Source: a virus. From it: a DNA stretch of 28,171 bases. Below, one piece after another: positions 1,777 through 28,171 of this stretch. Made by a program: the position numbers and the translations under genes. The stretch is from the IMG/VR virus record IMGVR_UViG_3300025769_000634, positions 1 to 28,171 of that record. The stretch is one strand, 5' to 3'. Every line of letters starts with the position of its first letter. The first letter of the stretch is position 1. The notes beneath the pieces are model-generated. The model did no database searches, was not told the origin of the DNA, and saw only the letters and a list, made by a program, of their open reading frames with translations.

Positions 1777-1780
1777 TTAA

Positions 1781-3375: not shown

Positions 3376-3380
3376 ATTCT

Positions 3381-3407
3381 ATAAATAAAATGGGGCCGAA
3401 GCCCCAT
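3381..3407 (-). terminator. Intrinsic terminator downstream of the 244-residue structural gene
   Basis: On the minus strand the stem ATGGGGC / GCCCCAT closes a TTCG tetraloop (3390-3407) and is followed directly by TTTTATTTAT. It begins 3 nt after the TAA at 3411-3413. GC-rich stem, stable loop and T-rich tail are all present. It would end or attenuate leftward transcripts before the connector and tail genes. Confidence 0.85.
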
Positions 3408-3410
3408 CGG

Positions 3411-4145
3411 TTATTTCAATTTCTTTTCAATTGCCCCATAAACTTCAACACCTTCATCTGTTTTAAACCAGGCTGCAAGTGCAGAGTATGGATTTTCATC
3501 AAAAGGAACTGTCATTAGTTTCCTTCCGTTCGACGCCCACTTAAAAGTACGTTGGTCGTCTGATAGTTTTATTACATTAGCTTCTACAGCTTTTATCCCT
3601 ACGTTTCGAATTGCTACGTTTTCATCGTTAGCAAGTTCTAAAAACTCTTTAGGATTATTTCTTGCAAAAACTAGTAAATCTCTTTTAAGTTCTTTAGATG
3701 TCATCTTAGATACAGAAGAACCTATTTCTACACGCATAATTGCTTCGGCTTGATCTACATCCATTTGCCTTGCTGCAATTAACGCATCTACCTCATATTC
3801 AATTATTTCTAATTCATCTTCTGCCTCTGCAACAGCGTCAAATTCATAATAAACCTTGTTCAGACCAGGATGATATAGAGATAGTAGTTTTTGTAGTATT
3901 TGCTTTTCTTTAGGTACGTTCAATACCCCGTCTTCAAAAACAATGTGTTCGAGTCTTTGGACTCCTTGCATTTCATCTACAAAAACTGTTTTTTGATTTC
4001 TTGTGTTTTTTAATTCTCTTTCATAACCTTTTTCTTCATCAAACCAGAATATATTTCTTGATTTTAAAGTAAAAGTTAAAGGAGACATCCCTTTTTTCAA
4101 AATGTACGCGCGGTCTTTAATCTCCCAATTTTGTTTTTTTGCCAT
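3411..4145 (-). CDS. Conserved virion-block protein, probable structural
   Basis: I place the start at 4145, giving 244 residues beginning MAKKQNWEIKDRAYILKKG. An in-frame ATG at 4199 would add 18 hydrophobic residues, but that stretch runs through the hairpin behind the capsid gene and has no coding look. The protein is mixed alpha/beta. An N-terminal beta part (about 1-100, with SPLTFTLKSRNIFWFDEEKG) is followed by an acidic helical part (about 100-190) and a C-terminal part with FKWASNGRKLMTVPFDEN. It lies directly downstream of the major capsid gene and upstream of the connector genes. A capsid decoration, head-completion or assembly role is possible; the family is not recognised. Confidence 0.72.
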   Translation of the reverse strand: MAKKQNWEIKDRAYILKKGMSPLTFTLKSRNIFWFDEEKGYERELKNTRNQKTVFVDEMQGVQRLEHIVFEDGVLNVPKEKQILQKLLSLYHPGLNKVYYEFDAVAEAEDELEIIEYEVDALIAARQMDVDQAEAIMRVEIGSSVSKMTSKELKRDLLVFARNNPKEFLELANDENVAIRNVGIKAVEANVIKLSDDQRTFKWASNGRKLMTVPFDENPYSALAAWFKTDEGVEVYGAIEKKLK

Positions 4146-4181
4146 GATATAATAATATAAAAATGAATAATATAAGTAAAG

Positions 4182-4208
4182 CCCGAGGCCGATAATCACG
4201 GCCCCAGG
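4182..4208 (-). terminator. Hairpin behind the capsid gene, possible attenuator
   Basis: On the minus strand, CCTGGGGCCG pairs with CGGCCTCGGG over ten base pairs with a 7-nt loop. Two of the pairs are G-U, so the stem is complete only in leftward RNA; rightward RNA would have two mismatches. The trailing sequence CTTTACTTAT is only moderately T-rich. It could partly terminate, or protect the 3' end of the highly expressed capsid mRNA. Confidence 0.55.
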
Positions 4209-4230
4209 TATTACTTAATTGTTATTATGA

Positions 4231-5610
4231 TTATTCGAAGTTTCCGAATAATACAAAGTTGTTCGCTCCTTGTACTACCAAACATCTTTCAGATAAGTAG
4301 TGTACATCCATTACATCGTCTCCAGTAGTTGAAGCACCACCTACAGAACCAGTAATCCAAGTCTTCATTCTTCTATCGTCAGCTTCAGAAGCTCTATAAC
4401 GAACGTGCAAGAATGGACGTTTTAGGTTTTTACCTAAGATTTGGTCGTATACTGAAGAAGTACCAGCTGGTACAAGAAGTCCAGTTACGTCAGAAGCGAT
4501 AGCTCCTCTAGTAGCTGCATCATTTAAGTATTTCCAGTCACTTTTGTAGAAGTCATAAGAACCTCTTCTGAATCCAGAGAAACCTAAGTTAAGAGCCATA
4601 TCCTCAGAGTTGTTAAATACTCCAAAAGAAACCCCTCCACTTGTATGAGGATTTAATCCAGCTAACATATCGTCGAAGTTCAAAGAAAGTGTTCTGTTTA
4701 AGAAAAGAACGTTTTCTTCGATAGCTCCTTGAGCGTCTAGCTTCTGTAACATGTTGTCAAAATCAGTTAAGTCGTCAGCAGCAGAAGAACCGTCTAATCC
4801 GTCTTCGAATACGTGACCTCTGGCTGTAACAGCAGCGAATAAACCTTCAGTACCTTTAAGGTCAAAGCTTGTGTTGTCGTTTTTCTCTGCCTCAACCAAA
4901 GACATTTCTAAGTAATCCTCGAAACGGCTTCTTGTCTCTCCTTCAGCTTTAAGATACCATAAGTATCCAGTTTCTCCAGCCTCTCCAGTTACTTCAACCC
5001 ATCCAATTTGAGACGCATCAGAACCGTTGATTCCGTAGTGGTCTTTGATGATAATAGGTCTGTTAGTGAAAGTAGTGAATTTAGGCTCAACAGATTCGCT
5101 CATAGAAGCAGAACCTTTAGCGAATTCTGAACCATAAACAAATAGTTTAATTGCACTCGCTGTTGTTGCAATACCAGCTGCCACACACCCAGTGTCACTA
5201 GTGTAACACCTTACAGTAATACTGCTAGTACTTGGAACTGCGCTTACATAAGCCTTAACAGTGTCAGTTCCATCTGAAATAACAACTGTTTGTCCAACTC
5301 TAATAGCGTGGTTGGTTAAACCTGTAATTGTGTTAGCTTTGTTTGTGTCAGCTCCCATAGTACCTCCACTGTATGATAAGTGCAAACGACCTTGCTCTGA
5401 CCAAATAACTTGGTCTGAAGCCATAGGCATTTCAGCCCCTACCATTCTTAAAAACCCTCCTACAGAGCGGTCTCCATAAATTTCACTTTCCTGTTCGTAT
5501 AGCTCAGGAAGATATTGTTGCGCCCATCCGTTATTTTGAATATCTAAATAATTAGCGGATGTAGCTTGTTTTATAGGGGACACAGCTGTCCCGTTAAAAT
5601 TAATTGCCAT
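4231..5610 (-). CDS. Major capsid protein
   Basis: A 459-residue protein that forms the capsid shell. It follows TerL, portal and an acidic scaffold-like gene, the usual position for a major capsid protein. The C-terminal half carries PFLHVRYRASEADDRRMKTW and ITGSVGG, then LSERCLVVQGANNF, which I recognise from capsid proteins of marine Bacteroidota and crAss-like phages; an HK97-type fold is expected. Residues of about 90-165 (starting near ITGLTNHAIRVGQTVVISDG) look like a small beta-barrel inserted into the shell fold. The leader is A/T-rich without Shine-Dalgarno. Hairpins lie downstream at 4182-4208 and 3390-3407, which may set its dose relative to the following genes. Confidence 0.9.
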   Translation of the reverse strand: MAINFNGTAVSPIKQATSANYLDIQNNGWAQQYLPELYEQESEIYGDRSVGGFLRMVGAEMPMASDQVIWSEQGRLHLSYSGGTMGADTNKANTITGLTNHAIRVGQTVVISDGTDTVKAYVSAVPSTSSITVRCYTSDTGCVAAGIATTASAIKLFVYGSEFAKGSASMSESVEPKFTTFTNRPIIIKDHYGINGSDASQIGWVEVTGEAGETGYLWYLKAEGETRSRFEDYLEMSLVEAEKNDNTSFDLKGTEGLFAAVTARGHVFEDGLDGSSAADDLTDFDNMLQKLDAQGAIEENVLFLNRTLSLNFDDMLAGLNPHTSGGVSFGVFNNSEDMALNLGFSGFRRGSYDFYKSDWKYLNDAATRGAIASDVTGLLVPAGTSSVYDQILGKNLKRPFLHVRYRASEADDRRMKTWITGSVGGASTTGDDVMDVHYLSERCLVVQGANNFVLFGNFE

Positions 5611-5627
5611 CTTTTAAATTTTAGCGT

Positions 5628-6842
5628 TTATTTTTTCATTTTAATTCTCAGTCGTGAACTATCTTCGCCAGATATAGCTCTCACTTTTACTCCAGAAGTT
5701 TCGATGACTCCAGTTGAGGTTTTTCTTGGGTCCATGTTTATGTTTTTGGACTCCGCCTCTAGCTGTCTTAATGCATCTGCCTTTCCTTGTTCGTAAAAAT
5801 GATTTGCAATAGTATCGGCATTTCTAGCAGCAAACAAAGCCTTGTGGTAACCTTTAGCATCTTTAAGCATGTTATTGTCATCTAAGAACGTCCTAAATGA
5901 TTCTACTATGTCGCTTTGAGCTTGCTTGGTTTGTTGAACATCGTTCACCTTAAACCTATACTTGTTGTCTCCTACTTTGAAATCAAAACCTTTGAACTCT
6001 TCGCTGAAAACTTGATTGGTTAAGTTGGTAAACTGCTCAGACTGTTTTTGCTGCACAGCACTTAGTTCTTCTTGCTGTTTATTGTATGTATTATAAAATT
6101 CAATAGCTTGTTGTTGATCTGTTGTCAGATTTGAGCTCAACTTGACCTCATCATAATACCTATCTTTCAAGCTATTTAAGAACTTTCTAGCTTCATTAAC
6201 CTCTTCTTTGTAGGCTAATTTTTTTCTTTTTATATCTCTAGCATCATCTATTTCTTCATCATACGAAAACTTATCTTCTAAAAGAAAGTTTATCTCATCG
6301 TTATCGAGATGTGATTTTGTTTGTTTGTAATATTCTTTAAGTAATGTTTCTTCGTCAATGTTAGAGTAATCTGCATTGAGTCGGACATAATCTTCAAGAC
6401 TGCCTCCTGTTTCTTTCATAAAGTCTACTACCTTTTGAATATTCTCTGGTAGTACTACTTCTTCTTTTTCCTCTTGAACGACAGGGGCTTCTTCTTGTAC
6501 AACATCCTTTTTCTGGATGTCTTGTGTTTGCATCCGCAACTCATCCTCTTCTTCTTTTACTAATTCTAATACTGATTCTTCTTCTTGTTTGGAAGGTTCT
6601 TCGGAACTCCGTACTTCTTCTTCCACTTTTGGGCTAGTTTCGGGTTCGTCGCGAACAGGTACCTCATCTGCACTTTGCTCTTGAATGGCATCTTTTTCTT
6701 CTGTTTTAGGTGGTTGCCTTAAATCTACTTTGAAAGTTTTTTCTCCTTCAATCTTAACGCCACTGACTTTCAAGACATCGGCTTCTTTTTGTTGAATAGA
6801 ACCTTCTTTTTCTTGTTCTAATTGTTCTTGTACTTCTGACAT
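5628..6842 (-). CDS. Probable capsid scaffolding protein
   Basis: A 404-residue, strongly acidic, Glu- and Gln-rich protein. Residues 1 to about 135 are low-complexity and probably disordered. Residues of about 135-300 are helical and likely coiled coil, and the C-terminal tail is basic, ending RLRIKMKK. An acidic helical rod with a basic C-terminus placed between portal and major capsid protein is the classic form of a scaffolding protein, where the basic tail contacts the capsid subunit. No protease gene is evident next to it, so release of scaffold without proteolysis is possible. The call rests on composition and position, not on a recognised family motif. Confidence 0.75.
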   Translation of the reverse strand: MSEVQEQLEQEKEGSIQQKEADVLKVSGVKIEGEKTFKVDLRQPPKTEEKDAIQEQSADEVPVRDEPETSPKVEEEVRSSEEPSKQEEESVLELVKEEEDELRMQTQDIQKKDVVQEEAPVVQEEKEEVVLPENIQKVVDFMKETGGSLEDYVRLNADYSNIDEETLLKEYYKQTKSHLDNDEINFLLEDKFSYDEEIDDARDIKRKKLAYKEEVNEARKFLNSLKDRYYDEVKLSSNLTTDQQQAIEFYNTYNKQQEELSAVQQKQSEQFTNLTNQVFSEEFKGFDFKVGDNKYRFKVNDVQQTKQAQSDIVESFRTFLDDNNMLKDAKGYHKALFAARNADTIANHFYEQGKADALRQLEAESKNINMDPRKTSTGVIETSGVKVRAISGEDSSRLRIKMKK

Positions 6843-6855
6843 AATAATATATAAT

Positions 6856-9273
6856 TTATCTTGGCTCGAACTGCTCTAGTCCGAATCCTCCTAAAGTATC
6901 AAATCCAGCGGACTCAAAATCTTTTGGAATTTTATTGTTTTTTCTTTGGTCTATAAGTTCAGACTGCTGTGATGCTTGAATTTTAGTTCGTTTATCTTTA
7001 CGGTCTTCTTTATACCTATCTCTTTCATTAATTACTTGCATTTCAGCTTGTTTAAGCTGCATGTTTAGCTCAAACTCTCTTTGCATAAGGTCCATTTTGA
7101 TTTGAGCCTCTCTCTCAAGTTTCTGCATTTCAAGCTGTGCTTTTACTTGCTCTATCTGAGCTTCTGTCTGCGCTAAAGCTTGTTGTTTTTGCATGTCTGC
7201 TTCAGCTGACGCTTGAGCCGACTGAGCATTTGCTTGGCTTTGAGCTTGAATGTTTTGCATTTGCGCCTGTCTATCTTCTTGAGCTTTGTTCTTCCTTCTA
7301 AGCTTCAAGAGTTGATTTGCAAGTTTCAAGTTTTTTACTTCTCGTACATCAATAGCGTCTTCCAAATGTATTTGGTCTCTTTGTAAAGCTACTTGTATGT
7401 TTGCTTCAAGGCGTTGTTTTTCCTCTTCATCTGGAGCTAATTCTAAGAATATTCCAAAATCGTGTAAATGAAGATTTTGTATCTCTTTTAATGTTCCTAC
7501 ATTAAGTTTACCTATCCCAGATAAGAACGAAGCTGTAGTGTTTCCAAACTCTAAAACATCTGATATTCTTAATGATATTGACTCTGCTGCTTTTAAAGCC
7601 AAATACAACACGGACTGCACAATGTGTCTTGTAGCTGTATTTGAGTTAGCCGCTGCCATTTTCTGTATACCAACAAGAGCGTCTTTGTCTGGCATTGACC
7701 CATCTCTAGCTTCATTTAGACCAGTTACATCCCTTATCATATTCAAATAATAGTTGTATGAATTAATAAGAGATGATATTTTACCTCCAGCATTCGACGT
7801 CTGAAGTTCTTGAATCGGTACTCTAGAGTGGTTAAACTCTCCGTCCTGGGTCATTGACCTACCAATAACAGAACCTGTCTGGAAGTACATATTAAGTGCC
7901 TCTTGTGGGCTATAGTATGTTCCGTTTCCAAGGTCTATTTCCGCAATACCGTCAGCGTCCAAATAAACCCCATCTGGAACCATTCTAGATAATACTTGTT
8001 GTATTTTAAGGTGTGTAAGCTGAATCATATCAGCAAACGTAGTCATCCTTGAAACAAGAGACTCTATCTGGCCTTTATACATTCTTGGCGCTACAATATT
8101 GTAAGACATCTGAACTTTTGTGGTATCAGACTTAGGTCTTGTCATATTCTCTGCCATTTTCCATTCCAATAACGTATCAAGACCAATTACTTTAGCACCT
8201 GTATATAGTACCTCGATTGACCTTTGAACCTTTTCAAATCTGGCTCTTTTGTCTTTTGGAGGATTGAATGTGTCGTCTTTCTTTATAATTTTATCAGCTC
8301 CAGTAGATGTCTCCTTAACTTTGTATACTTGGTTTTTGAATGTCTTGTATTCAAAATAAAGAACGTATATATGGTTTGTGTCTTCTGCATCAGAGTAAGA
8401 GTAAGACCTATGGTAATTTACAGCGTTTGAGCCTGTACCTTCAATCTTTTCTATATCTTCTGGAGTTAGATTTGGATATTGTTTTTTAAGTTCTGTAACA
8501 CTAACTCTTCTTATTTCTCCTACATAATATAGGTCATCAAAGTACGGTGACTCTGTGTAGGAATAAACTAAATCAGCTGGGTCAACATATTCCAGTTTAA
8601 TTCCTTCCGATGTATTGAATGAGTTTTTGTGAGCTCCAATACCAAGAGTTACTATATCATAAGCTACCCTGTTTTGTAGTAAATCATATTTATTGTGGTC
8701 TAAAACATTAGAGATAGCTTCTTCTGAAGCAACTTCAATAGATTGTTTGTAATCTAATTGCATGTGAAGTTGTAATTCTTCTGTTGTCTCTGGAAGTTCT
8801 TCTTGATTTGTTTTAAACATATTAACTCCGAACTCTTGCTGAACAGCTTGTAATAACTGTTTATTCTGCATGTCCGAAACTAATTTCCCTAAATACTCTG
8901 TTTTTTCCTTTATAGATGCTGGGTCTTGAGAGTAAGCCTTTATTTCGTAAGGTCTGTCATTAATACCGTTAACAACAATGTCAACAAACTTAGGGATAAT
9001 AGCAACTGGCTTCCAGTCTAAATTTAAATAAGACAAATCACCATTAATTGACAACTCATCTTTATACTTTTGTATAGACTGCTCACCACGAGCATATAAT
9101 CTTAATCTATGAAAATTATCTCTGTTAGCGTAATACCTGGTTGCTCCACTATCTCTTCTAAACCATTCGCCCTCAATAGCTCTAGCTACTTCCATTCCAT
9201 ACTGGCTGGATGCTTTCTCTGCGTCACTTACTGCTTGTGAAGGGAATATACCTTTTGGTGGTGTCTTTTGCAT
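6856..9273 (-). CDS. Portal protein
   Basis: An 805-residue protein that starts directly after the TerL stop (TAA followed by ATG, no gap). It would form the dodecameric DNA channel at one capsid vertex. The N-terminal region contains LRLYARGEQSIQKYKDEL and LNLDWKPVAIIPKFVDIVVN, then a long alpha/beta body typical of large portal proteins. The region around 480-540 (NYYLNMIRDVTGLNEARDGS) fits the stem and clip-helix area. Residues 656 to about 785 are a long Gln/Ala/Glu-rich coiled coil, followed by a short tail ending in EQFEPR. The long coiled coil could form a barrel inside the head. The protein is long compared with the 500-600 residues of many portals. Confidence 0.9.
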   Translation of the reverse strand: MQKTPPKGIFPSQAVSDAEKASSQYGMEVARAIEGEWFRRDSGATRYYANRDNFHRLRLYARGEQSIQKYKDELSINGDLSYLNLDWKPVAIIPKFVDIVVNGINDRPYEIKAYSQDPASIKEKTEYLGKLVSDMQNKQLLQAVQQEFGVNMFKTNQEELPETTEELQLHMQLDYKQSIEVASEEAISNVLDHNKYDLLQNRVAYDIVTLGIGAHKNSFNTSEGIKLEYVDPADLVYSYTESPYFDDLYYVGEIRRVSVTELKKQYPNLTPEDIEKIEGTGSNAVNYHRSYSYSDAEDTNHIYVLYFEYKTFKNQVYKVKETSTGADKIIKKDDTFNPPKDKRARFEKVQRSIEVLYTGAKVIGLDTLLEWKMAENMTRPKSDTTKVQMSYNIVAPRMYKGQIESLVSRMTTFADMIQLTHLKIQQVLSRMVPDGVYLDADGIAEIDLGNGTYYSPQEALNMYFQTGSVIGRSMTQDGEFNHSRVPIQELQTSNAGGKISSLINSYNYYLNMIRDVTGLNEARDGSMPDKDALVGIQKMAAANSNTATRHIVQSVLYLALKAAESISLRISDVLEFGNTTASFLSGIGKLNVGTLKEIQNLHLHDFGIFLELAPDEEEKQRLEANIQVALQRDQIHLEDAIDVREVKNLKLANQLLKLRRKNKAQEDRQAQMQNIQAQSQANAQSAQASAEADMQKQQALAQTEAQIEQVKAQLEMQKLEREAQIKMDLMQREFELNMQLKQAEMQVINERDRYKEDRKDKRTKIQASQQSELIDQRKNNKIPKDFESAGFDTLGGFGLEQFEPR

Positions 9274-11484
9274 TTATTCTATTATTTTTGAAAAGGCTCC
9301 TGAGTTATTATATTTCTTGAAACCAAAATCTAATCGTTTTGTTGTTTTCTCCTGTACTGGTTTATATAAGTTTCTGTTACAGGCCATAATCGCTAATCCA
9401 GAGCTAATTGCTGCATCATACTTTGTTCTATTGTTTATATCAAATCCAGCCCAATCCTGTAGTGTTCTGTTAAAGTAAACCGTACCATAATTACCATCTC
9501 CAAGATGACCTACGTGGTTTTCAATATAACTTTCAATAGCTGCTGCGTGAGCTTGCTTTATATCTTCTCCAGAGTTAGGAATACCACCTATCTCTTTTTC
9601 CGATGCTGATAATCGTGTATAGGTTTTGTCTGGTCTATTCATCGAAAACCCACGATACCCTCTTCGTTTAATATAATATAATAATCTTGGCTTGTTGTTC
9701 TCCGCTAATATTGGCATTCCATAAAAAATAAGTGCCATAAGCACGTCTTCAAAAAATATCTCTGCCGTTTGCGGTCTTGCAATATATTCTAGAAAAAAAG
9801 TATTTGATGGAGCTTCATCCATAGAAAACTTAGTTAGTCCGTGCAATGCACCTTTTGAACCTCTCTTATCTACTGTACCAGATATATCGTAACTATCGCA
9901 ACCAAATGCACCTAGATGTTCATTACCTGGCATTTTAACTCCATTTCTTTCTATTACACGGTTTTGTAGATTTATACTTGGTATCCATGACACCTTAAAC
10001 CTACCATTACTGTCAGGCACAAATATAACTCTTGTATCCCTTATTCCGTTCTCCCATTGAAAGTTGCCCTTGTTTATCACATTGGAGTAACCTATACCCT
10101 CGTTGTAGTCTATTTGTTCGTATATCTTAACTAAGTTAAATATACTGTTTTTAGTTTCATCTCTAAAAGCGTGCTGCTCTGTTCTTGGGAACTGACGGTA
10201 AAATTCATTTAATCCGTCTTGGTCATCTTTCAGACCCTCTGCTTCATTTTCCCAATGCTCTATTACTCCAGTATCAATAACCTCTCCCAGCGGTCCTTCA
10301 ACTTCTTGTTCTGGTGTATCGAAGAGAGGTAGTCCAAAAGAGTCAATGTATCCCTCGTAGTTCCATTCCATAGGTATGAACAAACTATATAATCCACTGC
10401 GAGTTTGTCCATTGCGGTTTCGTTTTGTAACGTCTGAATCTTCATAAAGCTTTTTAAAGTTATTACCACCTTTGTCAAGTGCGTTGGATGTTGAACCCAT
10501 CATACACTTTCCTGTTATTCTACTACCTAGTCTTAGAGTTGTTTTTGTTACCCTCCAGTTATTTAATATATTGTCTGGCTTTAACCATTTACCAGCTTCA
10601 TCATGAACTAGTAACGCAAGTTTTTCACCGTCATACGAGTTGTCCCCTGTGTTCTTCCAGTCGATTGTTGTATCAAGACCTTCGAGAACTTCTCTCTCCT
10701 TGTTTTGTATTGATTTTCTTGTAAGCTTCGAGGCTGGAACCCTATATGCGAGTTCTGTTTTTGGTCTGTCCATACCGTCTTGTATCGGTTTGAAGAAGAA
10801 CGGGTAGTTAACCGATATTGGTACAACCTTATCTGTGAACATCTTTTTAGCATCAGACCCAGATTTGGACAATATCCCAAATCGTGAATCAGATGAAATC
10901 GTGGCAAGGTTGACAGTTTCAGCCGAGGACATAAACGAGAATCCAGATCGACGATTTTTAAGGTAACACATTCCATAAGACCTTGAGTCGGCTTTGCAAG
11001 CCTCCCAGAAAATGAAAAATAATCTATTTGCTTCACGGAAGTCTGGTTTGCCAACATCAATCTTGGTCCACTGCAAGTACATGTAATGACTGCCAGTAAT
11101 GTAAGTATAAGTACCATTATTGGAAAACCAATGGCCTTTTTCGCGTCTTTCAAATTCTTCATTAATGTAATCCTCCCATTTTTCTTTGAACTCTTCTGGA
11201 TATTCCTTCCAATCAAAGATACTTTTTATTTGCTTCAGCTCTCTTGGATACTCTTCAGCAACCCACTTGTTTGCGCCTTTAGGAACTTTTACTGGAGATT
11301 TAGGTAGAGCTATTCTTAGATTTTGTATTTCGTATATCTCCCCTATTTGTCCTGTCTTGCTTATAACTACAATGTCATGTTCTTTATCGTAGCCATACTT
11401 CCAAGCTTTCTTTTTATTGAGCCTAGTTAATGTATTTATTCTTATAGGCTCAACAACTTTATATAATGTTTGTTGGTAAGCCAT
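9274..11484 (-). CDS. terL: Terminase large subunit (TerL), packaging ATPase/nuclease
   Basis: A 736-residue packaging motor protein. The ATPase half has a deviant Walker A around residues 175-186 (LKNRRSGFSFMS), a Walker B at 289-296 (LALLVHDE, with D295 and E296), and a coupling motif GSTSN at 330-334. The C-terminal RNase H-like nuclease half has candidate metal ligands D530 (in GAFGCDSYD), E595 (in PILAENN) and D690 (in RTKYDAAISSG). It cuts and translocates phage DNA with the portal encoded next door. Its ATG overlaps the previous stop by one base. The upstream sequence AAGGAGGT, 7 nt from the ATG, is the only strong Shine-Dalgarno-like site seen, but it also encodes the end of the previous gene. 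Confidence 0.93.
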   Translation of the reverse strand: MAYQQTLYKVVEPIRINTLTRLNKKKAWKYGYDKEHDIVVISKTGQIGEIYEIQNLRIALPKSPVKVPKGANKWVAEEYPRELKQIKSIFDWKEYPEEFKEKWEDYINEEFERREKGHWFSNNGTYTYITGSHYMYLQWTKIDVGKPDFREANRLFFIFWEACKADSRSYGMCYLKNRRSGFSFMSSAETVNLATISSDSRFGILSKSGSDAKKMFTDKVVPISVNYPFFFKPIQDGMDRPKTELAYRVPASKLTRKSIQNKEREVLEGLDTTIDWKNTGDNSYDGEKLALLVHDEAGKWLKPDNILNNWRVTKTTLRLGSRITGKCMMGSTSNALDKGGNNFKKLYEDSDVTKRNRNGQTRSGLYSLFIPMEWNYEGYIDSFGLPLFDTPEQEVEGPLGEVIDTGVIEHWENEAEGLKDDQDGLNEFYRQFPRTEQHAFRDETKNSIFNLVKIYEQIDYNEGIGYSNVINKGNFQWENGIRDTRVIFVPDSNGRFKVSWIPSINLQNRVIERNGVKMPGNEHLGAFGCDSYDISGTVDKRGSKGALHGLTKFSMDEAPSNTFFLEYIARPQTAEIFFEDVLMALIFYGMPILAENNKPRLLYYIKRRGYRGFSMNRPDKTYTRLSASEKEIGGIPNSGEDIKQAHAAAIESYIENHVGHLGDGNYGTVYFNRTLQDWAGFDINNRTKYDAAISSGLAIMACNRNLYKPVQEKTTKRLDFGFKKYNNSGAFSKIIE

Positions 11485-17996: not shown

Positions 17997-20168
17997 TTAG
18001 GTGTATGCTACTGAACCAGCAGTCGCTCCTTTCACAGAGGTTATTACAACCCTAAGGTCGTTTGAAGGTACGGCAGCAAAAACAATTTTTATTTTACTAG
18101 TGCTTGCCGAATCAGACTTATCTGTTCTGAATACATCTGCAAAAACAGTGGCTTCTGTGGTTTTATCATAAATTTGAACTACAATGTCAGCTGTTCCTAA
18201 GTTGTGAGTTACCTCTGCATATAAGTTTGAGGAGTTTACACTTGCTGCCGCTATGTCAGCTACAACGCTTTTAGCTGCTAATGTGTCTGGAGTAACTACT
18301 TTGGTACCTAAGGTTCCTGTCTGGACTTCCGCGGCACTTGCGTAAGCAACACCTAAATTTGTTCTTGCTGTTGAAGCGCTTGAGGCTCCAGTACCTCCAT
18401 CTGCGACAGGTAAATCTCCCGTAACATCTGTAGTTAGATTTATGGCGTTTCTAGTAATCTCTTGACCACTAATAGTAATATAATCTAACGAACCAATTAA
18501 AGTAACATCTGTTGAGTTATCAGTACCCGCTTGATCTACATCTAAGTTTGCTCTTGCGTCAGTTGCATTTGTAGCTCCAGTACCCCCATCAGATATAGCT
18601 AAAGTTCCTGTAATACTACTTGCACTTAAATCAACAGCGAGCTCTGTGCTTTCAAAAACAAGACCTCCATTTGCTTTAATATCTGCGCTAATAGTACTTG
18701 ATGTTATATCTATACCATTACCATCTGTAAAGTTTGTAATGTCAGATGTCAACGCTACTGTACCAGAGGCATTTGGCAAGTTAATTGTTCTGTCAGCAGT
18801 TGGATTGACAACATCTAATGTTGTTTCAAAATCATTTGCTGTTGCCCCTTCAAAAATAATACCACTTGAAGTGTTAATGACTTCAACATTATTAACTGTT
18901 TGCGTTCCAGCTACAGTTATGTTTTGTACACTCAAGGTTTGTGTACTTGGATTGTAGTGGAAATTTGCTGCATCAGCCTCGTCTAATAATCCATTACTTC
19001 CGTTGTGATAAACAATGTTGAAATCAGAATTTGAAGCAGAATCTTCTGTTACACTCACAGTAGATGCAAGAGAAGGCATTGTAACTGTTTTAGTGTTTAC
19101 CGCTGTTACGTGTCCTTGTGTCGATGTTGTAATGCTGTCTATAGCTGTAAAGGTTGCTCCAGCGGCTGGAGTTGCAGTAGACGTATTGTTTGTTCTTGAT
19201 ACAGAGTCGTGGGTTATTGAGATTGTAGGTGACGTTGCTGAGTTAGCAGTAAATGTCCCGCTTCCTCCTAACACACCAGTACCTTGAACTGTTAAAGTCC
19301 CATTGTTTACAGTTGGCAAATCTCCCGTTGTTATAAAGCCACTAGTAGTGTTGTCGTAGTTCGCCAAATCATTATCCACCACAAAATCCATGTTATTGTT
19401 CGCATCATCATACGTAACTGTGATTAATGTTTTCGTACCTCCTGTAGCGATAAAAGGACCAACAATGTCTTGAACTTGCTCAGTAGATAATTGTGTGTTA
19501 GTGTTAGTGTCTGTCCATGGCACGTTAACAACCATTTGGTCGTCACTATTAAGTTGAACACCATAAGTTCTGCCAGCTGTTGTTGTAACACTATTTGCAG
19601 CTACTGTCTGGTCTGTATTGCTAAAAAGCTGAACACCACCTGTTACTGTAGATGTAGCTAAAGGAAGCGTATAAACCGTATCGGTATCTGTCCATGGCAC
19701 GTTAACAACGGCTTGACCACTTGAGTTTAGTTGGATACCATAGGTTCTCCCACTTGTTGATGAAACAGCATTTGCAGCTACAGATTGGTCTGTATCACTA
19801 AATAGTTCTATACCACCTCTAACACTACTTGTCGCTTCATTTAAGTTTATTTGAACCGTGTCTGTAGCTTGAACAACTGTTGAAATACCAGTTCCTCCAG
19901 CAATATCAAGATTAGCTGCGTCGTCAATAGTCTGGTTTGTTCCACTATCTGCTGTTAGAGTAAAACTACTCATTGTTCCAGAAGAAGTACCTACTGTCTG
20001 CCAACTGCTTCCATCATAAAACTTTAAAGAAGTCCCATCAATAATAATAAGACCTTTGTTTCCAGTACCTAGTCCTGTGAAACTTGTTTCAGCCGCGTTG
20101 TGTACACGCGTATTTTTAATCTCTGCTACTTTTTGTAGATCTAAGTGATTTAAAATTGGTATTGCCAT
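17997..20168 (-). CDS. Tail fibre protein with internal repeats
   Basis: A 723-residue fibre protein. Residues 35-60 contain the common virion phrase KFYDGSSWQTVG. Two 59-residue repeats follow (about 115-165 and 174-224), each with GG[IV][EQ]LFS[DN]TDQ, then GRTYG and VVNVPWTDT; their DNA shares an identical 23-nt block. Two phage_fiber-type repeats with DGGTGA lie at 521-544 and 584-607. The C-terminal domain (about 655-723) has VTHNLGTADIVVQIYDK and is a likely tip domain. The protein is Thr/Ser/Asp-rich throughout, as trimeric beta-helical fibres are. It sits in a run of appendage genes. Confidence 0.85.
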   Translation of the reverse strand: MAIPILNHLDLQKVAEIKNTRVHNAAETSFTGLGTGNKGLIIIDGTSLKFYDGSSWQTVGTSSGTMSSFTLTADSGTNQTIDDAANLDIAGGTGISTVVQATDTVQINLNEATSSVRGGIELFSDTDQSVAANAVSSTSGRTYGIQLNSSGQAVVNVPWTDTDTVYTLPLATSTVTGGVQLFSNTDQTVAANSVTTTAGRTYGVQLNSDDQMVVNVPWTDTNTNTQLSTEQVQDIVGPFIATGGTKTLITVTYDDANNNMDFVVDNDLANYDNTTSGFITTGDLPTVNNGTLTVQGTGVLGGSGTFTANSATSPTISITHDSVSRTNNTSTATPAAGATFTAIDSITTSTQGHVTAVNTKTVTMPSLASTVSVTEDSASNSDFNIVYHNGSNGLLDEADAANFHYNPSTQTLSVQNITVAGTQTVNNVEVINTSSGIIFEGATANDFETTLDVVNPTADRTINLPNASGTVALTSDITNFTDGNGIDITSSTISADIKANGGLVFESTELAVDLSASSITGTLAISDGGTGATNATDARANLDVDQAGTDNSTDVTLIGSLDYITISGQEITRNAINLTTDVTGDLPVADGGTGASSASTARTNLGVAYASAAEVQTGTLGTKVVTPDTLAAKSVVADIAAASVNSSNLYAEVTHNLGTADIVVQIYDKTTEATVFADVFRTDKSDSASTSKIKIVFAAVPSNDLRVVITSVKGATAGSVAYT

Positions 20169-20171
20169 AAT

Positions 20172-20801
20172 CTATTTTTTTATATACGCGTATCCGCTTT
20201 GTGATTGTAAAAAATTTATTGTTAATCGATTTTCGTTTATATAAGTAACAATGCCCATTGCTTGAACATCGTTGTATACAGCCCCTTCCGTTAACTTTAC
20301 AGTTATCGTCGGAAGATAATTTTGCAACCCTAAATTATGGGTTATATCCCAAGTTTCTGAAGAGTTGTTTTGAAAATGTTTATGCGTTACTTTTTTGTTC
20401 TGCCAAGCTGAAGATGTTGAACTGTATTCTAATATATCTCCATCAGATACGTTAGAAACGATAACATCACTTGCTGTATCTATAGTCCCTACAGAACCAG
20501 TAGCTCCAGTTTCACCTTGAGGTCCAGTTAAATCTGGAGTTGTAAAAGTAGTGGAATCTGTAAAGTTAAATGTAAATGTTCCATCTTGATTGTCTGTAAC
20601 AGAATCAATACCGTTTCCGTCATTACCATCAGCTCCAGCGGCTCCTTGGGCATAGTTTATAATACCGCCAGAAACCACAACGTCAACACTAACAGGAGAT
20701 GTTTTATCTACAAGTTCTACCGTTATTGAATTTGTTTTTTCAATAACATTGACAGTAGTTGCGCTAGTTTTTTCTATTAAATTAACTGTACTTACCGCCA
20801 C
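20172..20801 (-). CDS. Collagen-like fibre protein
   Basis: A 209-residue protein. The N-terminus has three and a half 11-residue repeats (TVNLIEKTSAT, TVNVIEKTNSI, TVELVDKTSPV, SVDVV). A short Gly-X-Y stretch follows (GAAGADGNDGNGIDS, about 53-67), then a beta segment (DGTFTFNFTDSTTFTTPDL), then a second Gly-X-Y stretch (GPQGETGATGSVG, about 93-105). The C-terminal half contains DITHNLGLQNYLPTITVKLT, a small beta tip similar in style to the C-terminus of the neighbouring 723-residue fibre. Collagen-like triple helices are common in phage fibres. It probably trimerises and connects fibre parts. Confidence 0.78.
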   Translation of the reverse strand: MAVSTVNLIEKTSATTVNVIEKTNSITVELVDKTSPVSVDVVVSGGIINYAQGAAGADGNDGNGIDSVTDNQDGTFTFNFTDSTTFTTPDLTGPQGETGATGSVGTIDTASDVIVSNVSDGDILEYSSTSSAWQNKKVTHKHFQNNSSETWDITHNLGLQNYLPTITVKLTEGAVYNDVQAMGIVTYINENRLTINFLQSQSGYAYIKK

Positions 20802-20805
20802 TTTA

Positions 20806-21174
20806 TTATGTTGTTATTTCGCTTAATACTTTTATTTCTCCTTTAACGTATGTTTTTACCTTAGTAGGATTAGTTGTTGTTATCTGCAAGTCATATACAA
20901 AAGTACCAGCACCCCAGTCGATAGCATCTGTCATTGATATTTTCAATATTCCAGAATCTCCATCTTGAGTATCAGTATCAACCCATTCAAGTCCGCTACC
21001 AATAGTCAATGTTTCGACTGCTGTTGATAAATCTTTTTTGTTTTTTATCTGTAATCTGGGAGTAGAGCCCGATAAATCATTTACAGTATTAGTGTCGTTT
21101 ATAAAAAAATTAAACGTTACTTCCTCAAAACTATCTCCGTTATATTGGTCAGGTATGTTAAAAATAGCTGCCAT
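20806..21174 (-). CDS. Small beta-rich appendage protein (Ig/BppU-like N-domain suspected)
   Basis: A 122-residue all-beta protein, beginning MAAIFNIPDQYNGDSFEEVT and containing SGSTPRLQIKNKKD, SGILKISMTDAIDWGAGTF and VYDLQITTTNPTKVKTYVKG. The strand order resembles the N-terminal immunoglobulin-like attachment domains of baseplate upper proteins. It lies between the fibre genes and would fit an adaptor that links a fibre to the tail. A 69-nt A/T-rich gap without gene separates it from the gene upstream. Confidence 0.62.
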   Translation of the reverse strand: MAAIFNIPDQYNGDSFEEVTFNFFINDTNTVNDLSGSTPRLQIKNKKDLSTAVETLTIGSGLEWVDTDTQDGDSGILKISMTDAIDWGAGTFVYDLQITTTNPTKVKTYVKGEIKVLSEITT

Positions 21175-21243
21175 GTTCTATATTTTATTACTTCTTTTTA
21201 TCTTATTTTATATTACGTAATTTGTTTGTATGTTAATTTGTTA

Positions 21244-21804
21244 TTATGGTTGGTTTGGGTCGTAATCTCTACCAGCGGCTTGATAATATTCATAATCTCT
21301 AGGGCTGTTTGTAACGCCCGCACTACCAGAACTAATTCTTATTTTTATGGCCCTTGGAGCTCCATCAATAGCATTCCCAGCTATAGTGACCTGGAAAGTA
21401 TCCCCATCAGAAACACCTGTGTTCCCGCCATTTGGAAAACTAGCCCATGAGGTTCCGTCTCCAAAGTTAACAAAAGAACAACTACCCACAACTGAATTTG
21501 GGTCTGGAGAAACGTTAAAGGTAATCGTAAAGGTTTCGCCTATTGCTGCCCTTGGAGAAGATGATGAAGATGCTGGTATTCCAGAAAGCCCTATACTGTA
21601 CGTTACAGCAACAGCATCATGGTTATAGTTTTGAAACTCGCTCATATTATCAGTTCCAGCTACATTGTATGTTACGTCAAATCCATCTGAGTTTGCATAC
21701 TGAAAAGCCTCTGATAAAGACTGAATATTTTGCACATCACCATCATCTATAGCAACTTTTATGTCATCTTTTAAAGAAAGATTGTTAGTTGGTAAATTAG
21801 GCAT
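21244..21804 (-). CDS. Beta-sandwich appendage protein
   Basis: A 186-residue protein. Residues 1 to about 60 contain helical segments, including SLKDDIKVAIDDGDVQNIQS. Residues of about 67-170 form a probable Ig-like domain with GETFTITFNVSPDPN, VNFGDGTSWASFPNGG, DGDTFQVTIAGNAIDGAPRA and IKIRISSGSAG; VNFGDGT resembles PKD-domain turns. Its start overlaps the end of the S74 fibre gene by eight bases, so the two are translated together and may interact. Likely a virion surface or fibre-adaptor protein. Confidence 0.65.
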   Translation of the reverse strand: MPNLPTNNLSLKDDIKVAIDDGDVQNIQSLSEAFQYANSDGFDVTYNVAGTDNMSEFQNYNHDAVAVTYSIGLSGIPASSSSSPRAAIGETFTITFNVSPDPNSVVGSCSFVNFGDGTSWASFPNGGNTGVSDGDTFQVTIAGNAIDGAPRAIKIRISSGSAGVTNSPRDYEYYQAAGRDYDPNQP

Positions 21805-24800
21805 TTTCTAACTGTTTTATTCTATCTTCAAGCTCTACAATTTTTGCAACAAGAAGGTCGATGTAAGAAACACTCTTATACCCGAGCTCTGTCTCTTTAA
21901 TAAACTCTGGATGATGTTTTTCTAGCTCTTGGGCTACAACACCGAACCTTGTTTGTTTTTTATCTTTAAAGTTATATTCTTTAAAATCTACATTTATTCT
22001 TCTTGGCTTTAGATCTATTATATTTTCTTTTAACCTTTCATCTGAAGTTAATTGAAAGTCTGGGGCTATAAGAGTCGCATCAAACTCTTGATTTGTTGCA
22101 GTATCTTTGTTAGCAAAACTACTTGGGTTCACCCCGTTTAAGTTATCAGTGAAAACATTAAGGAATCTTAGTCCACTAGTTCCTATGTTTATAGCTGAAT
22201 CTGTACTTGGTGTAATATTTCCACTTAAAGAAATCGTACTTAAAGTTGAGTTGTTTGTAACTGTAAGGGAGTTTGCTGTAACCGCATCTTGAAAGTTACA
22301 GGTAGAGCTAACACTTAAAGTCCCTGTAATTGTAGTATTCCCAGAAGAAAGTGTCCCAGATGTAGATACATTACCGTCAGCATCTACAGTAAAATTATCT
22401 GTATCTACAGCAATACCTCCATTAAGATTAGCTACTCCTGTAGCTCTTAAAGTCCCAGATACTGATGTGTTACCGTCTACGTTAAATTTATAGTTATTAT
22501 CAATAGTTCCTATACCTACATTGTCACTCGAATCTATTAAAACACCGCCAGAGGTTGAACTTGCATTAGACAAGAATAAATTGCCACTAGCGGACATTCC
22601 TAAATACCCATAAACTACAGTGTTGTCATTATTAGAGCCGTCACTACCTATACGGATATGACCAGAGCTACCAAAAGTGTCGAACGTAGCTATCAAGTTA
22701 TTTCCAGTAGTATCATTTCTTCTGGCAAGAAGCATGCCGTTTGCACTTTCTGTTCCTACAAGATTTATTTCTGTACTAGAATCATTGTCTTGTGCGAGAA
22801 CTTCACCAATTCCAGGAACTCCGATTTCTTCATCAAGAGCATCGTTAAGGGTTTCTAGCGTTATAACTTTATTGCTTGAAGCGTTGCTGGAAAGGTTTCG
22901 TGCCTCAGTCTCTGTTGCTAGCTGAACCACCCCTTCTGAAGTTGTAGTGGCAACTGGAGTAGATATTGTTAAAGCTGGGTAACTGTTTCCTCCAACAGAA
23001 AAACCTTCACTTTCATAAGAAAAAGTAGTATTGTCGCCTTGTATAAGATAAAAATAACCTGTAGAAGCTGTTCTAGTCACTGCTGAACCATCCAAAGATA
23101 CACCTATTAATGTTTCTGAATTACCCAAATCACTCTTTGTAGCAAGCCCGTTTGGGCTTGTTGTGTCTGCGGCTATTATTGGATTTGCTGGGTCATCATC
23201 ATCTTGTGTGATATTAATATACGCTCCAGCTTTCAAAACGGTTTGAGAACTTAAATCAGTCTCGGTAGGATTATTAATAACCAATCTAATTTGTTCTGAA
23301 TTTGAATCCTTTTCAAACTTTATACTCTCAACTACATTGTTTTTAATAGTACTAAGCTCACCTGAGGTTAAAGAGACTTGGTTCGGTCCCAGGGTAATCT
23401 GGTCTCCTGTAATTATAATGCTGTTAGCAAAAGTTGAAGTACTCGAAGTAAAAATATTACCTCCGCTAGAATCTTGTAAATCTCCTCCTCTTAAATCACC
23501 TTTAAACCATTCGCTCTGTCTATTTAATATTTTAGTTCCGTCATTTTTAAAAAGGTCGGTTTTTGCTTTCCCCTCTATATAAGAAGCTGAACCAGAAACT
23601 GTTAATGTTCCAGTCATTGTATCTCCAGTAACCTCTACATATCTAGCGTCATTAGTGTTATTCAATTCATCTATATCTACAGATATTGAATAATAGTCGT
23701 TATCGGTATCAGCAGTTAAATCTATATACTTAGATCCATATATTCTATTTGAAAGCGTTCTGTCGTCATCTGTTGTTTCGCCTTTTAACTTTATGTCAAT
23801 ACTGTCTGCATTTACTAATGCACTATTTAGATCAGTGAAAGTGACTTCAGTACCATCTCCTGTAAAATACTCAATGTTTCTAACCCAACTTCCGTATGCA
23901 GATTTGAAATTGTTTACATCTACTTTACTAATTGAAGTTTGATTAGCACCTCTATCAAAAACTATAGTTGAAGATTGAGCTAAATCCAAATCCCCTCCAA
24001 CATCAAGGTCGGTTGTAATATCAAGACCTCTTTGAAACACAGGGCCGTTAGAATTGTCTCCTATACTAAGCTCTAAGGCTCCGTCTTGATGATACAGGTC
24101 TCCTCTAAACCAAGAATCTTTTTGATAATTTGACCCGTTTGTAGTTCCGTTATTTAAAAGCCTAGTTGATAGGTTATCTGCATATATATCACCAGCAACT
24201 CCATAGGGCCCAGAAAACTGAAGCATTCCTGTCATTGTATCTCCATCAATGTTCACATAAAGTAAATCTAGAGCACTAGTGTTTACATCTAAAGTTATTG
24301 GGTCGTTTGAATCTGGTCCATCGGTTTCTCCATCGCCTTCTGTAAATGATATGTCTATATATGTGCCACCTGTTATGTTATTTGAGGTAGTAACATAATT
24401 ACTGGACTCATTGTCTTTAACCAGCCTTAACTGAATATCTCCTGTTTGTGTATTAGTATCGTAGTTTACAAGGTCGTAATACAATGTGGTTATTACATTT
24501 GAATCCCAAGTAGATATTTTACTTGCATCAATATATTCTTCTTGAGAAACTCCGTTCCCGTCTTCAATATGTCTTCCAAAATAAATCTGTGAAGTTACTC
24601 CAAGGTCAATATCAAAATTTGTTGTAATAACATCTTGGCCTAATCCGCTATCAAAAACAGGTGTTCCAATATTTAAATCCGTTGTAAAAGCAACTTCGCT
24701 TGAATCGAAAATAGTGGTTCCAGCGGTTAATACTTTAGAAAGTCCACTCCCAGACTGTGTGGCTGTTATAATATCCCCAGAAATGTTACCTTGTAAAATA

Positions 24801-26268: not shown

Positions 26269-26554
26269 AGTATATAATATTACACGGGGCATCGAAAAAT
26301 AAAAAGTATGACAATAGCCCCTTATATATATAATATATAACCCTAATGTCATGTTTTTTTGTAAAAAAAGTTGTGAGATATATGGAAGTTGGGGGTTATA
26401 CCATAACTTACTGATACTCAAGCTGTTACGGAAAACGTTTCTTTTTACCCCAGGGGGGTCTGATTTATGTAAATTTAGTGTAAACTTTCAGCTTTTTGTC
26501 TTAACCTTTACTTAACACTGCCCTATGCTACAACTAATCTAGATATTGCTTAGA

Positions 26555-26584
26555 AGCAAATCCACTACGAGACGTTTTTGATAA
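26555..26584 (+). repeat. Conserved 30-bp element, copy 1
   Basis: AGCAAATCCACTACGAG, then seven variable bases, then TGATAA. It lies 84 bp before copy 2, with no ATG between them. The bases after it (TTAAGGTGTAGTAA) resemble those after copy 3 (GTAAAGTGTAACAA). Likely a promoter or operator element of the rightward block. Confidence 0.8.
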
Positions 26585-26638
26585 TTAAGGTGTAGTAAGG
26601 GAAGCAACAGAGCAACCGACACAAGAGAAGAGGAGCCA

Positions 26639-26668
26639 AGCAAACTCACTACGAGATGGAACTGATAA
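26639..26668 (+). repeat. Conserved 30-bp element, copy 2
   Basis: AGCAAACTCACTACGAG, then seven variable bases, then TGATAA. It ends 20 nt before the ATG of the nucleotidase-like gene. It differs from copies 1 and 3 at two adjacent bases in the 17-base part. Confidence 0.8.
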
Positions 26669-26688
26669 CTTAATAAAATAGTAAAGAT

Positions 26689-27162
26689 ATGAACTACAAG
26701 ATTTACTGCGATATGGACGGAGTCCTCGCAAACTTCAACTACCAATTCGAGCGGGCTACCCGCCAAACTCCTAAGGAGTTCCTCAAGTCCAATAGCATGG
26801 AGGACTTCTGGAAAGTAACTGACGAGAACCTTAGCTTCTGGAGTAGAATGCCGATGATGCGTAACGCTCACATACTTTGGAACTACCTCGCTGACAAGAA
26901 TGTAACACTCTTGACCACTCCATCTCCCAACGAGATTTCAAGAATTGGAAAGCGTATATGGAAGTCAAGGTATCTCAAAGGCAAACCTCAGATTATCTTC
27001 TCTGACTCAAAGCATGACTTTGCAAACTCGAGGACTATCCTAATCGATGACTTCAAGGTCAACCTCAACAAGTTCCGAAAGGCTGGCGGTATCGGTATCC
27101 GATGCTACAACGGGAACGCTACCGAAGTCGTAGAGCAACTCAAAGCGATACTCAATGACTAG
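26689..27162 (+). CDS. HAD-family 5'(3')-deoxyribonucleotidase-like phosphatase
   Basis: A 157-residue HAD-fold hydrolase that probably removes phosphate from nucleotides or related substrates. Motif I is DMDGV with nucleophile D8 and acid/base D10. Motif II is LLTTPSP with Thr76/77. Lysines in ISRIGKRIWKSRYL supply motif III, and motif IV is ILIDDFKVN with D120 and D121 for Mg2+. The small cap and length fit the NT5C-like group found in phages, where it may act in dNTP recycling. The DNA is clearly more GC-rich than the leftward block (30 of 60 bases G/C at 26701-26760). It lies 20 nt after repeat copy 2. Exact substrate is unknown. Confidence 0.82.
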   Translation: MNYKIYCDMDGVLANFNYQFERATRQTPKEFLKSNSMEDFWKVTDENLSFWSRMPMMRNAHILWNYLADKNVTLLTTPSPNEISRIGKRIWKSRYLKGKPQIIFSDSKHDFANSRTILIDDFKVNLNKFRKAGGIGIRCYNGNATEVVEQLKAILND

Positions 27163-27304
27163 GGAAGTAAGACGACAACTCGAGGGTCTAGCAGTATTAT
27201 CCTACTACGTAATCAAAGCTGGAGTAATCATAGGAGCGGCAGTAACAGCTATCCTCCTCGCTGAAGCCTTAATGGTCTGGCTCACCATAAAGATATTCGG
27301 ATAA
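27155..27304 (+). CDS. Small membrane protein (49 residues)
   Basis: An ATG at 27155, inside the last codons of the nucleotidase-like gene (8-base overlap), opens a 49-codon frame starting MTREVRRQLEGLAVLSYYVI and ending IKIFG with TAA at 27302-27304. After a charged N-terminus (TREVRRQLE) almost everything is hydrophobic (about 12-46, with VIIGAAVTAILLAEALMVWL), so one long or two short membrane spans are likely. The overlap and lack of internal stops over a gap otherwise without gene support it. Antiholin, superinfection exclusion or membrane takeover are possible but nothing shows which. Its stop touches repeat copy 3. Confidence 0.72.
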   Translation: MTREVRRQLEGLAVLSYYVIKAGVIIGAAVTAILLAEALMVWLTIKIFG

Positions 27305-27333
27305 GCAAATCCACTACGAGCCCAAATTGATAA
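27304..27333 (+). repeat. Conserved 30-bp element, copy 3
   Basis: AGCAAATCCACTACGAG, then seven variable bases, then TGATAA. It begins at the last base of the 49-residue gene and ends 29 nt before the ATG of the 79-residue gene. Its 17-base part is identical to copy 1. Confidence 0.8.
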
Positions 27334-27362
27334 GTAAAGTGTAACAATTAAATTCAAATACT

Positions 27363-27602
27363 ATGCAAGTTTTAAAATCAAAGCGTTTCGTTATTCGCAA
27401 GTCCCTAATCGGGAAAGGTACAATCATCGAGTTCAAAGACTACGATGGCAAAGTGTGGAAGTATGACCACGACAAGGTCTACGAACTTAACAAGGAGCGG
27501 TTCGACAACATGCCGTCCTTCAACAAGTACAAGTCTTACACACAGACTTACAACATGCCCAAGTTCATACGGGCGCAAGCTGACGAGGTGCTGGTCGAAT
27601 AG
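27363..27602 (+). CDS. Small protein of unknown function
   Basis: A 79-residue protein, rich in Lys, Asp and Tyr, beginning MQVLKSKRFVIRKSLIGKGT. The N-terminal half looks like a small beta-barrel or wing (FVIRKSLIGKGTIIEFKDYD, GKVWKYDHDKVYELN). The C-terminal half contains SYTQTYNMPKFIRAQAD. I recognise no family. It lies behind repeat copy 3 and in front of the exonuclease gene, with codon use (AAC, TAC, TTC, AAG) like the other rightward genes. Confidence 0.7.
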   Translation: MQVLKSKRFVIRKSLIGKGTIIEFKDYDGKVWKYDHDKVYELNKERFDNMPSFNKYKSYTQTYNMPKFIRAQADEVLVE

Positions 27603-27648: not shown

Positions 27649-28149
27649 ATGTATACTGTTATTGACTTGGAGACCACAGGACTCAACACAAAAACCTGTC
27701 GAATTATTGAGATTGCCATCTTTCACGTTGATGGCGACAAGGTAGAGAAAAAGCTTTCTACACTTGTCAACCCTAAGGTCTTCATCTCACCACTAATCCA
27801 ACGCATCACGGGTATCAAGTACTACGATGCAATGAAAGCTCCAACGTTTAAGGAGATAGCTAACGATGTAAAGAAGTTGTTCAGAGGCAAAGTGTTTGTG
27901 GCTCACAACTCTAAGTATGACTACGAGGTCCTACGCAACGAGTTCTACCGCAATGGAATACCTTTCAGAAGAAAGCACTTGTGCACTCTCGAACTCTCTC
28001 GGGTAGCCTTTCCTAACCTTGGCTCTTACAAGTTGGGTAACCTTTGCGAGCAGTTAGGCATTGACCTAACCAACGCTCACAGAGCAGAAGACGACGCCCA
28101 CGCTACGGCTGTGTTACTACAACGCACCTTAGCGGAGGCTCCCTTCTAG
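27649..28149 (+). CDS. DnaQ-like 3'-5' exonuclease (DEDDh family)
   Basis: A 166-residue exonuclease of the RNase T/DnaQ fold. Exo I is DLETT with D6 and E8, Exo II is HNSKYDYEVL with D91, and Exo III is HRAEDDA with H144 and D149, so all four metal and catalytic residues of the DEDDh type are present. Segments LCTLELSRVAFP and SYKLGNLCEQLGI closely resemble those I recall from Bacteroidota exonucleases, which supports the host call. It could proofread a phage polymerase in trans, or degrade host DNA or RNA early in infection. A hairpin follows 5 nt after the stop. Confidence 0.9.
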   Translation: MYTVIDLETTGLNTKTCRIIEIAIFHVDGDKVEKKLSTLVNPKVFISPLIQRITGIKYYDAMKAPTFKEIANDVKKLFRGKVFVAHNSKYDYEVLRNEFYRNGIPFRRKHLCTLELSRVAFPNLGSYKLGNLCEQLGIDLTNAHRAEDDAHATAVLLQRTLAEAPF

Positions 28150-28154
28150 TCCTC

Positions 28155-28169
28155 ACACCCTTCGGGTGT
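28155..28169 (+). terminator. Probable terminator hairpin after the exonuclease gene
   Basis: ACACCC pairs with GGGTGT around TTC, directly after the exonuclease stop. The sequence after the stem (AT) is cut by the window edge, so the T-tract cannot be checked. Confidence 0.6.
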
Positions 28170-28171
28170 AT

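Follow-up and report, generated by a model that had tools for sequence, protein, structure and literature searches.

Putative sigma-70-type promoters with three conserved boxes before early genes of a large uncultured phage group

The rightward gene block of a 28,171-base viral record (IMG/VR record IMGVR_UViG_3300025769_000634, positions 1 to 28,171; this whole stretch is referred to as the window) is headed by copies of an element that we interpret, on balance, as a promoter of sigma-70 architecture, belonging to a group of uncultured phages, which place it before most of their early genes, and most likely read via a sigma factor of the phage itself. The group is large, and its members are relatives of Elemovirus, Pervagoviridae, and Pachyviridae. 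The promoter would consist of a -35 box CAAA, an extra box TACGA, and a -10 box GATAAT, followed by six bases and a purine start, and it precedes the first genes of the rightward block, which we take to be early. It would most likely be read by the host core RNA polymerase carrying a phage-encoded sigma-70-family factor of 251-255 amino acids (aa), while a neighboring HTH protein may serve as a co-activator or, through a dyad of its own, as a switch. We propose more tentatively, as the less probable part of our interpretation, that this widespread group of Bacteroidota-type phages has largely abandoned host promoters, its early genes being run by the three-box promoter and by the phage sigma, which virions might bring along, with its HTH partner, and with about one in seven of these promoters giving leaderless mRNAs that begin right at the ATG. 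The resulting sequence rule predicts transcription start sites of many genes in this large group, points to a likely reading factor and its partner, predicts leaderless phage mRNAs, and makes testable how these phages gain control of transcription when most of their genes lack a preceding host-type promoter. We found no description of the element in the literature searched, although the search was limited and an earlier description is possible.

The element in the window and in related genomes

A first-pass annotation of the window had noted a repeat of the form AGCAAAYYCACTACGAG-N7-TGATAA, and its description is confirmed, with two refinements. Exactly three copies are present in the whole window, all on the plus strand (26555-26584, 26639-26668, and 27304-27333), while 100 dinucleotide shuffles of the window produced none. 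As described, 15 of the 17 bases of the first part are identical in all copies, the second and the third copies are found 20 and 29 nt 5' of the ATGs at 26689 and 27363, and none precedes a leftward gene in the window. The refinements are these: conservation extends beyond the 30-bp repeat, to the predicted +1, 12 nt beyond the start of GATAAT; and AGCAAAYYCACTACGAG, while present, is only the local form of a family core, CAAA-N5-TACGA-N9-GATAAT. The putative promoters and the genes that follow them are:

26557 to 26592, plus strand: putative promoter copy 1, heading the rightward block in tandem with copy 2; CAAA 26557-26560, TACGA 26566-26570, GATAAT 26580-26585 (sequence, PWM, and core scans); predicted start G at 26592, from the statistics of 171 sites given below
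26641 to 26676, plus strand: putative promoter copy 2; CAAA 26641, TACGA 26650, GATAAC 26664-26669; predicted start A at 26676, with a 13-nt leader to the ATG at 26689
26689 to 27162, plus strand: 5'-3' deoxyribonucleotidase (NT5C-like; phrog_2643, E 1.4e-22), the next gene downstream of copies 1 and 2
27306 to 27341, plus strand: putative promoter copy 3; CAAA 27306, TACGA 27315, GATAAG 27329-27334; predicted start G at 27341, with a 22-nt leader to the ATG at 27363
27363 to 27602, plus strand: 79-aa protein without assigned function, directly after copy 3
27649 to 28149, plus strand: DnaQ-like 3'-5' exonuclease (phrog_192, E 2.4e-49)

Copy 1 is located 84 nt 5' of copy 2, and G001, a more distant genome with ten copies in total, has such a tandem pair as well, spaced by 86 nt. 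The early block is truncated at 28171, where the viral record of 28,171 bases ends. A close relative of the same species (G002; first gene with 100% protein identity; 62,447 bases, or 62.4 kb), taken as complete because of its 123-nt direct terminal repeat, spans the window, beginning at about 13322, and possesses six copies; three of them are found just past the window (41628, 42278, and 44585), and all share one strand and precede rightward genes. One of the genes beyond the window end (G002 41689-41928), again following an element copy, encodes a close paralogue of the 79-aa protein, and each of the 79-81-aa paralogues (window 27363-27602, G002 41689-41928, and the G001 copies) is found directly 3' of a copy of the putative promoter.

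Other features of these genomes deserve mention. Repeats of GTATAGCATA, accompanied by TTCTACACTA words, are clustered at the right end of the window (28165-28171), in G002 (41489-41604), and at both ends of G001, with the assemblies of the window and of G001 both stopping at GTGTAT there; the cluster may mark a site of packaging or an origin. An intergenic block of the window (26406-26460), ACTGATACTCA..GTTA.GGAAAACGTTT..TTTTTACCC.AGGGGGGT, is conserved with G001. The early block closes with a gene for a TonB-dependent outer-membrane receptor of 836-848 aa (reverse complement of G001, 19570-22116; G002, 58726-61236), for which the Pfam plug plus barrel were matched on the G001 copy. Such a receptor is unusual in a phage and possibly serves superinfection exclusion.

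Further relatives were gathered via the sigma factor found in both G001 and G002, and motif discovery on their upstream regions, with the element not presupposed, returned it in diverged form, one example being TTTACAAACTAAATACGATTACTTATGGATAATA in G006, with identical spacing within the common core. Among the matches listed in a scan of all viral contigs for this core are many contigs of 40-70 kb with 2-8 copies on one strand. By an estimate of the expected number, most single-copy matches of a first, exact viral scan appear attributable to chance. In 22 related uncultured genomes, many of which were selected because they carry the motif, 171 copies are recognized at no more than one mismatch, all on the strand of the sigma gene, with none on the opposite strand and two in reversed-sequence controls. 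The expectation of the first-pass annotation, that a search of the whole phage genome would reveal copies before other rightward genes, was thus borne out in the complete conspecific and in the relatives, with up to 22 copies per genome, on one strand only.

A signature of transcription starts

In all 171 copies, the seventh base after GATAAT is a purine, compared to 678 of the 1217 other GATAAT sites (56%) in the same genomes. In 25 of the copies an ATG begins at this base, and 24 of these ATGs open frames of 30 codons or more; the ATG spike is confined to the exact +1, with no case at the neighboring offset 5 and one at offset 7, while for the rest of the copies ATG mostly falls in a broad peak, about 23-31 nt after GATAAT. 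The purine rule together with the ATG pattern marks a fixed start point, which places GATAAT at -12 to -7, TACGA at -26 to -22, and CAAA at -35 to -32. As in sigma-70-family promoters, the -10 hexamer ends 6-7 nt before a purine start, and the -35 element lies about 17 bp 5' of it, CAAA beginning 23 nt before GATAAT, equal to a hexamer CAAANN plus a 17-nt spacer. Judged by these sequence patterns, the element is almost certainly a promoter, as the first-pass annotation had suggested, with the placement before rightward genes, the restriction to one strand, and the start-site signature all in support, and transcription would start at the predicted +1. The copies with ATG at +1 (24-25 sites) predict leaderless mRNAs. 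Two cases speak against this (G006 30602 and G018 41758), in which the ATG of the gene directly follows GATAAT, upstream of the predicted start; these genes would need transcription from further upstream or another start codon.

The same patterns bear on two other explanations. Operator or stoperator sites of a phage repressor, the former already raised in the first-pass annotation, would also come in many copies of a single orientation, but the core is asymmetric, with no dyad symmetry, and a fixed distance to a purine, along with ATG at +1 in 24-25 copies, obeys the rules of start sites and not those of repressor sites, making this explanation very unlikely as well as unnecessary, with a separate, more operator-like dyad present in the same intergenic region. 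An RNA-level signal (a translation enhancer, a processing signal, or a regulatory leader) would agree with the proximity of start codons, but the invariant blocks are unable to pair with each other and have no Rfam match, and a translation signal leaves unexplained the bimodal position of ATG, which falls either right at +1 or some 17-25 nt further on; we consider it the most improbable of the explanations discussed here. The dyad sites are:

26306 to 26354 of the window, no strand: 43-bp dyad TGACAATAG-N25-CTAATGTCA, an inverted repeat between the leftward late and the rightward blocks
42093 to 42141 and 48246 to 48294 of G002; 737, 8351, and 62304 of G001: further dyad sites

The spacing of the dyad arms, TGACAnTAG-N25-CTAnTGTCA, is nearly fixed, no instance is found in reversed controls, and the same dyad spans the start codon of the HTH gene in G001, G002, G003, and others. 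It is a probable operator, perhaps of the HTH gene, distinct from the promoter, and its presence both at this start codon and at the late/early junction points to control of both its own gene and the junction by the HTH protein.

Candidate readers of the promoter

A phage RNA polymerase or a phage sigma factor had been named as candidates in the first-pass annotation, and only the latter has been found, being present in all fully examined genomes that carry the motif. A sigma-70-family gene of about 250 aa (251-255 aa) is encoded in 22 of 22 motif-bearing genomes, interrupted in one of them (G024, oriented, about 8705-9458), where it is broken by stops and split between frames and where 13 motif copies remain. 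In six of six members searched it matches TIGR02937, RpoD_Cterm, and FliA_WhiG, its PDB matches are SigA and FliA chains, and the 50 listed Foldseek matches to its predicted structure (moderate confidence, pLDDT 71.5) are sigma-factor structures. The gene is also present in all 11 contigs of at least 57 kb, out of 30 contigs with at least two copies of the element. The sigma and HTH genes have no tblastn match in MW202828, elemoC, or phi38:1, and both the full-length sigma and the element (at no more than one mismatch) are missing from seven relatives by terminase, MW202828, elemoC, phi38:1, phi13:2, phi19:3, Panino, and Gundel_1, the last having one short, weak sigma match of 53 positions. 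In an unselected terminase sample, G044 possesses the sigma and six copies, G037 the sigma and one copy, the fragment G045, with the sigma at its very end, no copies, and the fragment G048 three copies and no sigma. The co-occurrence of sigma and motif is confounded by shared ancestry. No match to the sigma was found among the cultured phages of INPHARED, and a search for hosts through bacterial genomes matched only mixed metagenome bins.

As to a phage RNA polymerase gene elsewhere in the genome, none was found in the phages examined. PF04998, representing multisubunit (beta'-like) or two-barrel enzymes, is absent from these phages while positive controls were matched, although a very diverged enzyme could escape such a search; PF00940, for T7-like polymerases, matched nothing in the phages, nor in the control set; and no long early protein of G001 or G002 is left unassigned. 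The giant virion protein of these phages, roughly 2.2-3.3 kaa in size, was considered as a polymerase and rejected, having no PHROG or PDB polymerase match and no conserved DxDxD motif. In G002 (543-8204, minus strand) and G001 (L134), this protein is 2.5-2.7 kaa and belongs to no known family, and in most relatives it contains an HExxH metallopeptidase-like motif.

The primary sigma of Bacteroidota recognizes TTG at -33 and TAnnTTTG at -7. The family core possesses neither box at those positions, in agreement with the first-pass annotation. A host-type TAnnTTTG promoter at the elements was rejected, as it is absent as a family feature; a single copy (G002 41630) has TATTTTTG across the variable spacer, taken as chance. 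On the late strand, TAnnTTTG is found before genes 0-3 times in the sigma phages, versus 15 times in MW202828 and 11 in elemoC, and the leftward late genes of the 22 sigma phages have almost no host-type promoters. A k-mer search for a common promoter of these late genes gave scattered words and no clear motif, probably representing lineage-shared sequence. In MW202828.1 (L132), without the sigma, a perfect palindrome containing TGTCGTTAACGACA is instead found before several early genes (examples at 44535, 44801, 45880, 47647, and 48916).

The gene order raises a further alternative. The sigma gene closes the motif-bearing stretch, with 164 of the 171 copies upstream of it, within 15.7 kb, and the motif might thus act before sigma is made, as expected for pre-sigma genes, being read by whatever is available at infection (host RNA polymerase using a host sigma, or else a polymerase or other factor delivered by the virion), with the phage sigma and the HTH protein, made from the end of this block, switching transcription to later genes. 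The -35/-10 spacing, however, is that of a sigma holoenzyme, and the element is unlike the Bacteroidota consensus (TTG..TAnnTTTG). A conserved box followed by N6 and a purine is also seen in promoters of phiKZ-like polymerases, such as AR9 AAATATATATTAT-N6-G (PMC5312081), and the polymerase residing in a giant tail protein of P23-45 reads a pre-early motif (PMC10770324), a giant virion protein being present here too; but here the giant proteins lack the polymerase signatures, as described above, and the motif-less MW202828 and elemoC carry one as well. We consider such an infection-time reader rather unlikely.

The HTH protein (206-216 aa), encoded on the strand of the sigma gene, adjacent to it or within about 3 kb, might instead be the main specificity factor, a MotA-like activator on TACGA/CAAA recruiting the holoenzyme to GATAAT, an explanation that partly overlaps with ours. 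In its favor, the gene is present in 22 of 22 motif-bearing genomes, an extra conserved box is positioned inside the -35/-10 spacer, and motif differences follow HTH distances beyond those of other genes (partial r 0.50, P 0.0015, versus 0.23 for sigma, two other genes controlled, 15 genomes), although the Mantel-type test is weak and confounded. Against it, the start of the HTH gene is covered by a different palindromic sequence, likely its own operator, and the structure model of the N-terminal half is poor, leaving this role doubtful. With the sigma gene at the end of the motif stretch, and with motif variation closer to the HTH protein, we are much surer of the promoter than of its reader, for which the phage sigma appears a reasonably probable choice. 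We infer this identity from the sequence comparisons, which favor a phage sigma over a phage polymerase.

Comparison with known phage promoters

T4 middle promoters combine a MotA box with a -10 element. The element described here is similar in joining an activator-like box near -30 to a sigma -10, but differs in having CAAA and TACGA as its upstream boxes and in being accompanied by a gene for a full sigma factor. The early promoters of the AR9/phiKZ type are read by a virion multisubunit RNA polymerase (PMC5312081). The conserved box, the six bases, and the G start are shared with these, as are the many early genes with a copy of their own, but no such polymerase was found here, and the -35 and -26 boxes lack a counterpart in the reported AR9 consensus. 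The pre-early promoters of P23-45 are read by an RNA polymerase fused to the tape measure protein (PMC10770324). Across relatives, the presence of the motif tracks that of the reading factor in both cases, but the tracking factor here is a sigma gene, with the giant virion protein showing no polymerase signature. In phiEco32 and 7-11, the phage-sigma motif is short (TAATGTATA or TGATGT-type) and was assigned to middle and late genes (PMC4331800). These share with our phages a phage sigma gene and a conserved motif, in few copies per genome, found via intergenic comparison, while in our case three boxes span 29 bp, before early-block genes, with up to 22 copies per genome and with ATG-at-+1 copies. 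Promoters of phage sigma factors are thus of a known kind, represented by phiEco32 and 7-11, and what would be new here is the -26 box, the many copies in the early block, and the predicted leaderless class.
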